A stretch of 60,586 nt of DNA from a bacterium (GTDB lineage: Bacteria; Patescibacteriota; Microgenomatia; UBA1406; GWC2-37-13), in assembly GCA_030647255.1 (NCBI GenBank), contig JAUSJK010000089.1, forward strand, positions 1 to 60,586, in the 5' to 3' direction. The notes beneath the pieces were generated by a model. That model ran no database searches, had not been told where the DNA came from, and saw only the letters and a list, made by a program, of their open reading frames with translations. The translations under genes were made by a program, and so were the position numbers. The stretch's first letter is position 1, and the number at the start of each line of letters is the position of its first letter. Shown here piece by piece: positions 2,987-57,628 of the stretch.

Positions 2987-3222
2987 TCATCTTTCTCCAA
3001 AATATTCTTTCAACATGGTTATTGGAGTTGTCTTTCCTTTATTTGATTTTAAATATAACTCTCTTCGTTTAGCATCTTTCATATTTCTATATGACTCGTA
3101 GTAAATTAACTCAAGCGGTAGATATGCTTTTATAGATAAAGTTTTTAGAGAAACTGCGGAGAATATATATGTAGCAAAATTTCATACTTGTTTCTTGCAC
3201 AGGTACCTGGCTACGTCACAAT
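2987..3222 (-). pseudogene. Internally deleted GIY-YIG endonuclease relic (mini-element copy)
   Basis: On the minus strand the start reads MKFCYIYIL and the end reads LIYYESYRNMKDAKRREL...MLKEYFGER then a stop, matching both ends of small GIY-YIG (UvrC-like) proteins. The middle is missing and the two parts are in different frames. The same deletion point is present in the copy beside tRNA-Asn. Past the start lies part of the hairpin region (CAGGTACCTGG). It is therefore a relic of a repeated element, not a working gene. Confidence 0.75.
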
Positions 3223-3852: not shown

Positions 3853-3953
3853 AAATAAGTCTGAACGAGTCTAAAGACCTGGTGTGTGTAAACATAGTAT
3901 AACCTCGGGGGGTTGTTAGACATGTTCAGGAACCGAGAAATTGAGTTGCCCAA

Positions 3954-4235: not shown

Positions 4236-4311
4236 CAAAACATTATAGCAAATCGCAGTCTATTATTTTATGTTGTTATGAAGGTCTAAGATTACTCAGT
4301 TCCCCCGAGAA

Positions 4312-4456
4312 TTATCTTCCTCCGAAATATTCTTTGAGCATGATCAACAGAGTTGTCCTTCCTTCATATGATATTAAATATAACTTTCCTACCACTTTTT
4401 ACAAGCATAGATACTTTGGTTTCCCGTGGATTATTAGTCCAGAGATTGACCAAGCA
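4312..4456 (-). pseudogene. Degraded GIY-YIG relic, second copy
   Basis: The minus strand ends with GRTTLLIMLKEYFGGR and a stop, like the other relics, but the upstream part has in-frame stops and frame changes. The distal end is bordered by CCCCCGAGA at 4302-4310, matching 8 bases of the 10-bp repeat that flanks the tRNA-Asn copy. Confidence 0.6.
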
Positions 4457-8979: not shown

Positions 8980-9501
8980 ATGTCAGATACTAACGCAAAA
9001 AAACAACTTTCTGAAGAGGCTTTCAATATAGTTCAAGCAATGAGAGATTCCTTATTGTTACTGGATAAGGACTTAAAAGTAGTTTCTGCCAATAAATCTT
9101 TTTATTCTACCTTCAAGGTCACTGCAGAAAATACCATAGGGGAAAAAATTTACGACCTCGGCAATAAGCAGTGGGATATTCCCGAGTTAAAAGCACTTCT
9201 TGAAAAGACGCTAACTAAAGAGGAAAAAGTCCACAATTTTAGACTGAGTCATAAATTCCCTGATATTGGTGAAAGGTTGATGCTTCTTAATGCATGCCGA
9301 AACGACCACACCAATATGATTCTACTGATCATCACCGATATAACTTCTCAGGAAAAAGCCTATTCTACTCTGAAAGCGTCCGCTGAATCTGTAGATAAAA
9401 TCACTGGCTTCATGGTTGGAAGGGAAGTAAGGATGGTGGAACTTAAAGCAGAAATTGCCAAGCTTAAAAAAAGTATTTCTGAATCACTTCCAAAATCCTA
9501 A
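8980..9501 (+). CDS. Stand-alone PAS domain protein
   Basis: The 173-residue protein has one PAS domain (about 15-120) of the type found in chemotaxis methyltransferases and histidine kinases: DSLLLLDKDLKVVSANKSF, GEKIYDLGNKQWDIPELK and MLLNACR. A short helix follows with MVGREVRMVELKAEIAKLKK, the linker normally found just before a kinase. No kinase or output domain follows; the stop comes 1 bp before a repeat of the GIY-YIG mini-element. It may be a truncated kinase or a true sensor adaptor. Confidence 0.75.
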   Translation: MSDTNAKKQLSEEAFNIVQAMRDSLLLLDKDLKVVSANKSFYSTFKVTAENTIGEKIYDLGNKQWDIPELKALLEKTLTKEEKVHNFRLSHKFPDIGERLMLLNACRNDHTNMILLIITDITSQEKAYSTLKASAESVDKITGFMVGREVRMVELKAEIAKLKKSISESLPKS

Positions 9502-9645
9502 AGAATTATGGAGAACATGTATGGAGAAAAATTTCATACTTGTTTCTTGCACAGGTACCATGCGGGCAGGTACAAGACTGCACCTACCTTCGTCCCAATT
9601 CTGAATGCGTAGCAAGGCGCAGAATTGTGCCTTGCTCCCTATAGT
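9501..9645 (-). repeat. GIY-YIG mini-element, 5' part with hairpins
   Basis: On the minus strand this holds the hairpin with arms GCAAGGC/GCCTTGC (9612-9635), the GGCAGG/CCTGC-type hairpin region, GGTACC and the first codons of the GIY-YIG frame (MKFFSIHVLHNS). The rest of the gene is absent. The outer end reads GGGAG-CAAGGC, keeping a few bases of a tRNA 3' end. Confidence 0.75.
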
Positions 9646-9810: not shown

Positions 9811-10377
9811 TTAAGGCTTTGTCCACATGATACTATTTGAAGCAACTTCAACCGACTGTAAAATTTGACCAACTGGAACGAGAATGTCACGAAGTGTGAG
9901 ATTTGTAGGAGCCCCAGTTGTATTTTTGGGTTGATCATATATACCATACCTAATGATCAGCTTTCCATCTTGTCGCGTTTCATATGTATTTATTACATCA
10001 CCCCTGAAATCATATCGAATATGAATGCTTTCTGAATAAGTAGTGACAGGTAGTATGTCTATTACTAATGCTCCTCTTGCTCGTGGTTCGCTAAGAGATT
10101 GTTGTAAAAAAATGATTCTGCCGTCTGGCAATACGGAATAACCCTGCTTCCACATTGGACCGAATTTTGGTTCCCCATGGGTTATGACATTTTTTGCTAT
10201 ACTGTGGGCTGTCTCTCTTATTGACCTCGGCAATGCTATTTGTTCAGGAGGAATGACTGATGGCACGACACTGAAAAGATGGCGTTGATTTTCAGTATAT
10301 ATTCTTTCTATCACAGAAGCCTGTAGCAAAACTTCGAGTGTCGAAACCATATTATGAGTATGATAATCTCTTTTCAA
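9811..10377 (-). CDS. Hypothetical protein
   Basis: The 188-residue protein is not recognised. It appears soluble, with beta-strand-rich parts (GYSVLPDGRIIFLQQ, IHIRYDFRGDVINTYE). No signal peptide or membrane segment is seen. It is flanked on both sides by mini-element pieces, so it is likely part of the accessory island. The start could also be the ATG nine codons later. Confidence 0.55.
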   Translation of the reverse strand: MKRDYHTHNMVSTLEVLLQASVIERIYTENQRHLFSVVPSVIPPEQIALPRSIRETAHSIAKNVITHGEPKFGPMWKQGYSVLPDGRIIFLQQSLSEPRARGALVIDILPVTTYSESIHIRYDFRGDVINTYETRQDGKLIIRYGIYDQPKNTTGAPTNLTLRDILVPVGQILQSVEVASNSIMWTKP

Positions 10378-10462
10378 TCAAAAGTAAATTGTATTTATAT
10401 AGGGTATATAAAATCATAAGAGAGACTTTTAAGTACGTAGACGTAATAGAATTTCATAAACT

Positions 10463-10548
10463 TTGACAGGTACAAGACTGTACCTGGCTGCGTCACAATT
10501 CTGCGTTAGGCGAAGCAAGGCGCAGAATTGTGCCTTGCTCCCCCGAGG
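10463..10548. repeat. GIY-YIG mini-element, hairpin part with tRNA-end remnant
   Basis: It contains a perfect hairpin CAGGTACA-AGAC-TGTACCTG, the GCAAGGC/GCCTTGC hairpin (10515-10538) and then CCCCCGAGG. Read on the minus strand the edge is CCTCGGGGGAG-CAAGGC, the same junction seen at the tRNA-Asn 3' end, but no tRNA precedes it. Confidence 0.75.
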
Positions 10549-10701: not shown

Positions 10702-10826
10702 TCACTTTTCTCCAAAATATTCTTTCAACATAGTCATTAGAGTTATCCTTCCTTTATTTGATTTTAAATATAACTCTCTTCGCTTGGCATCTTTCATATT
10801 TCTATATGACTCGTAGTGAATTAACT
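10702..10826 (-). pseudogene. GIY-YIG relic, 3' part only
   Basis: The minus strand encodes IHYESYRNMKDAKRREL and MLKEYFGEK followed by a stop, the C-terminal half of the GIY-YIG protein. The 5' half is missing. Confidence 0.7.
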
Positions 10827-12183: not shown

Positions 12184-12460
12184 CCCCGAGAGGTGTCTTT
12201 CCTTTATTGGATTTTAAATATAACTCTCTTCGCTTGGCATCTTTCATATTTCTATATGCCTCATAGTGAATTAACTCGAGTGGCAGATATGCCTTTATAG
12301 ATAAAGTTCTTTGAAGAATTATGGAGAACATATATGTAGAAAAATTTCATACTTATTTCTTGCGCAGGTACCATGCGGGCAGGTACAATACTGCACCTAC
12401 CTTCGTCCCAATTCTGAATGCATAGCAAGGCGCAGAATTGTGCCTTGCTCCCCCGAGAGG
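12184..12460 (-). mobile_element. GIY-YIG mini-element inserted at the tRNA-Asn 3' end
   Basis: The element is flanked by identical 10-bp direct repeats CCCCGAGAGG at 12184-12193 and 12451-12460. The second copy is the 3' T-stem/acceptor end of tRNA-Asn. Inside, on the minus strand, are the GCAAGGC/GCCTTGC hairpin, the second hairpin with GGTAC, and a GIY-YIG frame (MKFFYIYVLHNSSKNFIYKG) with an internal deletion and shift before LELIHYEAYRNMKDAK. It resembles a non-autonomous integrative element. Confidence 0.65.
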
Positions 12461-12519
12461 ACTCGAACCTCTAACCTTGATCTTAACAGGATCCTGCTCT
12501 ACCATTGAGCTACAGGGGA
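12448..12519 (-). tRNA. tRNA-Asn (GTT)
   Basis: A cloverleaf folds from the 7-bp acceptor TCCCCTG/CGGGGGA, D-arm GCTC..GAGC, anticodon loop CTGTTAA (anticodon GTT) and T-arm with TTCGAGT. The CCA is not encoded: the 3' end runs directly into the CAAGGC hairpin of the mini-element. Confidence 0.93.
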
Positions 12520-37750: not shown

Positions 37751-38180
37751 GGGGATGACAGGATTCGACGAGGAATTTGCACTTTTACACATCGTTAGGG
37801 CGGACCTATCCGTTAAATGGAAACCTTTTAAATGCAAAAGCTAATACTGCAATTGCAGATCTTAAGGCTTATGTTCTTGAAGCATATGAAAGCGCAACCG
37901 CGTCTCAGTATGCTCAAAACGCCGCATATTTATATGCGTAAAACCGTAAGATCCTCTGTATAAGTTTTCCTCTGTTCAACTTGTAGAGAGTAAACCAATG
38001 GAGGTAAGATTTTTTTGGCATTCCCGATTGGCCAGGAAAGTCGACAACTCATAATCGGCTGTATATCCATCTTTGTTTATTTATAAAGGTATACTCGAGC
38101 CCACAAATAAACTATCCCTAGCTATAAAATGTGTTTGAGTGTTTCCCCGGACCCCGGTTCAATTCCGGGCATCTCCACCA
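37751..38180 (+). ncRNA. ssrA: Transfer-messenger RNA (tmRNA)
   Basis: The 5' end GGGGATGACAGGATTCGACG and the 3' end with T-arm CCCCGG...TTCAATTCCGGG and CATCTCC-ACCA pair as a tRNA-like acceptor (GGGGATG/CATCTCC). The CCA is encoded. The tag frame runs from about 37840 (A-N-T-A-I-A) to a TAA at 37939 and ends A-A-Y-L-Y-A, about 33 residues. It directly follows smpB. Confidence 0.93.
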
Positions 38181-38472: not shown

Positions 38473-38715
38473 GTGTATTATGTATACATTCTTCTCCTAA
38501 AAAATAAAACGTACTATACGGGTTTTTCTGCTGATCTTCGTGAACGTTATAAAAACCATCAAGGAGGCAATGTTTCTCGGACCAAAAACCTGAGACCGTT
38601 ACAACTTGTTTACTATTCTGCTTTTAATTCCAAATTAAAAGCTCTACATTTCGAAAGCTATCTTAAAACTCCATCTGGTTTCGCTTTCAGAAATAAACGC
38701 CTCATTTCAAAATAG
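38473..38715 (+). CDS. Intact small GIY-YIG nuclease
   Basis: The 80-residue protein is a full GIY-YIG (UvrC-like) domain: YYVYILLLKNKTYYTG, ADLRERYKNH, LRPLQLVYYSAF and ESYLKT. It starts with GTG. Unlike the relics elsewhere it has no internal deletion, and it belongs to a different subtype. Its place after ssrA fits the frequent presence of such genes near RNA genes in this group. Confidence 0.85.
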   Translation: MYYVYILLLKNKTYYTGFSADLRERYKNHQGGNVSRTKNLRPLQLVYYSAFNSKLKALHFESYLKTPSGFAFRNKRLISK

Positions 38716-57454: not shown

Positions 57455-57525
57455 TCGGGGATCTGCTAATGGTAGGCAGCCAGACTCTGAATCTGGTAAT
57501 CTTGGTTCGAGTCCAAGTCCCCGAG
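57455..57525 (+). tRNA. tRNA-Gln (CTG)
   Basis: The cloverleaf has acceptor TCGGGGA/TCCCCGA, anticodon loop CTCTGAA (anticodon CTG) and T-arm CTTGG-TTCGAGT-CCAAG. The CCA is not encoded; the discriminator G is also the first base of the GCAAGGC hairpin. Confidence 0.92.
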
Positions 57526-57628
57526 CAAGGCACAATTCTGCGCCTTGCTACGCCTAACATACAGAATTGGAACGAAGGCAGGTGCAGTATTGTACCTGCC
57601 CGCATGGTACCTGTGCAAGAAAAGTAGC
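57525..57628 (+). repeat. Mini-element hairpin region at the tRNA-Gln 3' end
   Basis: It has the GCAAGGC/GCCTTGC hairpin (57525-57548), a second hairpin with GGCAGGT and ACCTGCC, and GGTACC, like the element at tRNA-Asn. The GIY-YIG part is absent. Confidence 0.8.

Follow-up and report, generated by a model that had tools for sequence, protein, structure and literature searches.

A probable tRNA-directed GIY-YIG nuclease element, decayed, at the 3' end of a tRNA-Asn gene in a Microgenomatia genome

The window analysed here is a stretch of 60,586 nt of contig JAUSJK010000089.1 (assembly GCA_030647255.1; Patescibacteriota; Microgenomatia; UBA1406; GWC2-37-13), and the feature lying against its tRNA-Asn gene is probably (at a probability of roughly 0.7) a decayed copy of a minimal, nuclease-only mobile element directed to tRNA genes, made up of a leader with two palindromes and one small GIY-YIG gene. 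The tRNA-targeted reading is supported because in many genomes intact parents lie behind the same palindrome exactly where a tRNA gene ends, because filled and empty sites occur, and because the hairpin is not a general companion of tRNA genes.

The host gene of the insertion is a tRNA-Asn (GTT) on the minus strand at 12447-12519, called by ARAGORN and matched by Rfam RF00005 at 12448-12519; all parts of the element lie on the same strand. Read in the direction of the tRNA, its 3' end is followed without a gap by the left palindrome CAAGGCACAATTCTGCGCCTTG (12426-12447), a linker, a second palindrome, the GIY-YIG frame and CCTCTCGGGG. The left palindrome, recognised by a palindrome pattern search and by co-variation of its stem across the family, begins on the first base after the tRNA-Asn discriminator, ARAGORN assigning its first C to the tRNA as the last base. 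In a loop/linker comparison the left palindrome's loop has its complement in the linker CAGAATTG (12409-12416), and the right palindrome, GGTAGGTGCAGTATTGTACCTGCC in the sequence at 12378-12401, lies ahead of the GIY-YIG start. The GIY-YIG relic occupies about 12194-12350 and matches PF01541 at 15 bits; alignment to an intact copy on contig C47 of the same genome shows an internal deletion and the loss of the C-terminal part. A repeat search found the end of tRNA-Asn again on the far side of the element, as CCTCTCGGGG at 12184-12193, followed by TGAGC (GAGC in the tRNA). The initial annotation had described a 10-bp direct repeat, CCCCGAGAGG, with two hairpins and an internally deleted GIY-YIG frame between its copies, and all three hold: the repeat copies lie at 12184-12193 and, 267 bp away and within the tRNA-Asn gene, at 12451-12460. 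The far flank of the element matches the end of its own tRNA best, with a score of 23 where the tails of the other tRNA types, taken as the null, reach at most 19 (rank 0 of 35), and the 24-base palindrome pattern has four matches in the window and none in shuffled sequence. A search for an empty site of this tRNA-Asn locus through the neighbouring CNNM-like gene in relatives gave no synteny, and no such site was found.

Further copies are present in the window. A second occupied tRNA, a tRNA-Gln (CTG) on the plus strand at 57455-57526 (tRNA call and junction comparison), is joined to a leader at 57526-57622 (plus strand; sequence search and palindrome pattern) that has both palindromes and from which the GIY-YIG gene is gone; the palindrome is the same and in the same register, as the initial annotation had reported of this hairpin region. 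The following pieces lie on the minus strand. Sequence and palindrome pattern searches revealed a copy without a tRNA at 10377-10542, with the tRNA-end remnant CCTCGGGGGAG, a leader (palindrome at 10516-10537) and the start of the GIY-YIG frame, and, together with alignment, a leader with the start of a GIY-YIG relic at 9501-9637 (palindrome at 9613-9634). The partial copies reported at 9501 and 10463 were both confirmed; the claim that they keep pieces of a tRNA end stands for the latter, but is weak for the former, which retains only GGGAG. Alignment to the intact copy identified a C-terminal part of a GIY-YIG relic at 10734-10826, and alignment likewise a C-terminal remnant at 4303-4395 that is followed by TTCTCGGGGGAAC, which resembles the tRNA-Asn end. 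A relic at 2987-3207, found by profile match and alignment, has lost its left palindrome and aligns without gaps to the 12194 relic across the deletion, so that the internal deletion is common to both, as had been claimed. On the plus strand, a GIY-YIG gene of another subfamily (38473-38715) lies 3' of the tmRNA (37751-38180), whose own 3' end is joined to a palindrome. As a separate observation, a repeat, AACCTCGGGGG(K)TTGTTAGA, at 2316-2340 and 3898-3925 brackets two small open reading frames that by eye resemble a toxin-antitoxin pair.

The shared deletion had been taken to suggest that the relics spread after it arose; the deletion is indeed shared, but the spread itself is unproven and inseparable from local duplication. 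That the copies between 2987 and 12446 arose by segmental duplication of this region, rather than by separate insertions, is a serious possibility that we rate a little under even, because all copies in the window except that at tRNA-Gln lie within 10 kb, two of them with the one deletion. Such duplication would concern only the spread and is compatible with a mobile element; against it as a full account, the tRNA-Gln at 57526 and a tRNA-Arg on C47 are separate sites occupied in the same register.

The genome to which the window belongs (1.2 Mb in 90 contigs) has 12 PF01541 matches. Among them is the intact parent that the initial annotation had proposed to look for, an element at C47:13668-13973 that adjoins the tRNA-Arg(GCG) 3' end; its intact gene (C47:13764-13973) is preceded by the same leader as the copy at tRNA-Asn. 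The GIY-YIG protein matches the Pfam profile at 58.6 bits (PF01541 cut-off 22.6) and so belongs to the GIY-YIG superfamily, its fold being beyond doubt; the catalytic residues are kept across 44 family rows (R28 in 43, E64 in all 44, G20 in 43). NCBIfam and PHROGs gave no specific family for the protein, and PADLOC gave only weak partial matches, to larger proteins. The earlier proposal of a tRNA-targeted element is upheld, but not that of a separate non-autonomous kind, since an autonomous form exists and the copy at tRNA-Asn is a decayed derivative. Three further intact GIY-YIG genes, which lie behind tRNA-Gln(TTG), tRNA-Ser(GCT) and the tmRNA, belong to other subfamilies and have different palindromes, and four GIY-YIG genes are not behind any tRNA. 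Some other arrangements were seen in this genome. Two GIY-YIG genes away from tRNAs (L003 and L004) share repeats upstream (GACGCCGGGGTCAC) and downstream, as if flanked by element ends; at L018:1896-2720 (C47) a 5' fragment of tRNA-Trp precedes a helix-turn-helix reading frame of 229 aa, the last codons of which run into a complete tRNA-Trp, seemingly another gene seated inside a duplicated tRNA; and a tRNA-Thr and a tRNA-Glu (L245 and L264) are trailed by partial tRNA-like 3' fragments.

Linkage to tRNA genes was assessed in a blind scan of 84,980 species genomes with four intact GIY-YIG proteins as queries. The scan returned 50 loci, nearly all in Patescibacteria and in both the Microgenomates and Parcubacteria groups; many of the genomes are draft metagenome-assembled genomes and some records are possibly misassigned, such as L055, labelled Verrucomicrobia. 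Enough upstream DNA was available at 44 loci, and a same-strand tRNA ended at most 212 bp upstream in 25 of these (null rate 0.3%), while no locus had an upstream tRNA on the opposite strand (0/44) or a tRNA just downstream (0/44). At least ten tRNA isotypes host elements, Trp, Gln, Tyr, Glu, Asn, Met, Arg, Ser, Asp, His and Gly among them, and on the 44-row GIY-YIG tree, which is short and only partly resolved, the isotype switches at least 14 times. Several loci without a called tRNA retain a decayed tRNA tail (L051, L063). In a family sample of the best-scoring 30 Patescibacteria loci, 8 had an upstream tRNA; linkage is common, and not universal, for GIY-YIG genes, many of which have no adjacent tRNA in these genomes. 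A study in mSystems (PMC12455944) predicts that other bacteria received GIY-YIG genes from Patescibacteria.

The palindromes have a distribution of their own. A degenerate pattern of the left palindrome matched in 24 of 144 related genomes (reversed control, 0/144), and in a non-redundant sample of 35 palindromes, 11 lay exactly at a tRNA 3' end and 24 away from tRNA genes. Those exactly at tRNA 3' ends are all of the left-end type and belong to a GGCAC/GCGCC-like class (11/19, vs 0/16 in the other class; Fisher p = 0.0002, the two classes having been defined after the list was seen). The stem co-varies, with 95.8% of cells paired vs 79.8% in shuffles and five pairs altered on both sides, and an element's linker contains a complement of its own loop averaging 7.5 bases, vs 5.0 for other loops. 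Palindromes exist also without a GIY-YIG gene, and Rfam 15 gave only tRNA and tmRNA above the gathering score, hence no known RNA family for them.

Comparison of relatives showed tRNA sites both filled and empty, for tRNA-Arg and for tRNA-Tyr. The cleanest case is L061 (Levybacteria), where the element has tRNA-Arg(TCT) on one side and on the other an exact 21-bp repeat of the 3' end of this tRNA, TTCGATTCCCTCCAGGGTCGC; at L089, L093 and L097 the same tRNA-Arg is closely followed by tRNA-His with no insert, giving matching empty sites. At L092 the same tRNA-Arg site is occupied by a different insert, which also ends in this repeat, and at L094 by a relic of another GIY-YIG subfamily. Within one genus, the tRNA-Tyr site is filled in three genomes and empty, with no recognisable insert, in eight; it bears an intact element in G046, a deleted one in G064, only palindromes in G060 and another GIY-YIG subfamily in G070. 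Occupied sites, as far as examined, retain a complete tRNA. The expectation of flanking repeats fared less evenly: a clean right-hand tRNA repeat is present, but in few Patescibacteria copies. A systematic search of these found only L061, L048 and the copy at tRNA-Asn (the repeat being partial in the latter two) clearly above the null; candidate repeats with scores of 20 to 23 at L107, L114 and L125 were rejected, as they look like neighbouring complete tRNA genes. In the majority of Patescibacteria copies no right-hand tRNA repeat could be detected, so duplication need not be part of every insertion. The same layout with a different nuclease was seen at L061:2790-3457, where a tRNA-His 5' fragment is followed by a reading frame with a weak HNH domain ending inside a complete tRNA-His.

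Duplicated tRNA pieces are frequent in the Chlorobiota-related genomes. The metagenome-assembled genome behind L084 and its relatives have many GIY-YIG genes, and in a sample of 27 such genes a same-strand tRNA lay just upstream in 12, just downstream in 2 and on the opposite strand in none, two further upstream cases having been missed by the start finder. The far side repeats part of the tRNA in about 19 of 22 Chlorobiota-type tRNA/GIY-YIG pairs, and the T or anticodon loop of the extra tRNA copy often contains a short palindrome. In three single-contig genomes (G412, G430 and G437), arrays of three to five near-identical units, each containing a tRNA fragment, stand beside one complete tRNA. 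At L131:1-4646 (G004:C2), 13 perfect tandem copies of a 357-bp unit (tRNA-Ser 5' fragment, palindromes and GIY-YIG reading frame) reach a contig end; this array may be real or an assembly artefact.

The nearest lead at the protein level is the Ssn family of Neisseria, single-strand-specific GIY-YIG nucleases that have cognate repeats in the genome, which the element resembles in its small stand-alone GIY-YIG protein and dispersed repeats; tRNA-end insertion and duplication of tRNA fragments are not known for Ssn. It is conceivable, if unlikely, that the protein is a host-adapted nuclease of this kind acting on dispersed palindromes, for which tRNA 3' sites are tolerated and not targeted. Palindromes away from tRNA genes and stand-alone GIY-YIG genes without a tRNA agree with this; a register exact to the base at the discriminator, a strand bias of 25 to 0, tRNA fragments duplicated beside the GIY-YIG gene and the recurrence of different GIY-YIG subfamilies at one and the same tRNA argue for targeting. 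Remnants of integrative islands or prophages, inserted by a tyrosine recombinase at a tRNA attachment site, are a far less probable source: the tRNA 3'-end repeats at both ends of the L061 element resemble attL and attR, but the intact units inspected are about 400 bp with GIY-YIG as the sole gene and no integrase or site-specific recombinase gene, one protein family uses at least ten isotypes, and no relatives were found in viral contigs. The least credible account takes the hairpin as an ordinary tRNA terminator or 3' trailer with a GIY-YIG frame as chance neighbour; it does lie directly at the tRNA 3' end and form a stem, but as a general terminator it is refuted by its presence behind only 3 of the 30 tRNAs of its own genome inspected, by the absence of a T-run after the stem and by the 24 of 35 palindromes off tRNA genes, and intact GIY-YIG genes behind the hairpin in many genomes and tRNA pieces repeated beyond the gene speak against it as well.

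How a tRNA-directed element of this kind might insert can be outlined tentatively from sequence comparison, in a scheme to which we give slightly less than an even chance: a GIY-YIG cut at tRNA-gene/palindrome DNA, with repair-coupled insertion that involves part of the tRNA. The protein would cut structures formed by the tRNA gene and the palindrome, perhaps or even probably in a folded, single-stranded state; during repair the element would be copied in and a part of the tRNA duplicated. Copies with an internal deletion or with palindromes alone would then have been moved in trans, or would simply reflect decay, and a palindrome in the extra tRNA copy may protect against re-cutting. The mechanism may differ among GIY-YIG subfamilies, because several of them, with different palindromes, share the habit of sitting at tRNA ends.

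Several known systems resemble the element in part. Like REP/BIME sequences with their RAYT (TnpA-REP, Y1 HUH), it consists of a single small nuclease gene and short, imperfect palindromes, some of them in inverted pairs, and has many dispersed copies that lack the gene; unlike them, it has GIY-YIG as its only gene in place of the Y1 HUH transposase and sits at tRNA genes. With GIY-YIG homing endonuclease genes (I-TevI type, free-standing) it shares a selfish-looking nuclease gene at a conserved gene, but it uses many tRNA isotypes, has a palindrome leader and no intron, and in some of its copies duplicates a piece of the tRNA. Integrative islands at tRNA 3' ends likewise keep the tRNA 3' end complete and have a repeat at the far side, as some copies of the element do, whereas the element has no recombinase, measures about 0.3-0.45 kb and uses many isotypes. 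The nearest solved sequences to its protein are UPF0213 GIY-YIG proteins (PDB 1zg2, 1ywl). No description of tRNA-linked GIY-YIG elements was found in the open literature, a search that leaves room for subscription papers.

Taken more broadly, and more tentatively still, the loci may represent a widespread class of nuclease-only elements of about 0.3-0.45 kb in Patescibacteria and Chlorobiota, in which the GIY-YIG protein would direct insertion at tRNAs of many isotypes, leaving a complete tRNA, duplicating a piece of it and carrying palindromes in the loops of the extra copy, with tandem arrays possible and palindrome-only copies as decayed derivatives. If this is true, one nuclease of 85 residues and two short palindromes would suffice for a mobile element that lands at tRNA genes with no integrase or transposase, adding a nuclease-only route to tRNA-end insertion, and the empty and filled sites and tandem arrays would be ready test cases for how such elements copy. 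It would also account for a large number of GIY-YIG genes and palindromes that stand unassigned in Patescibacteria, whose genomes are streamlined and whose mobile elements are poorly known.
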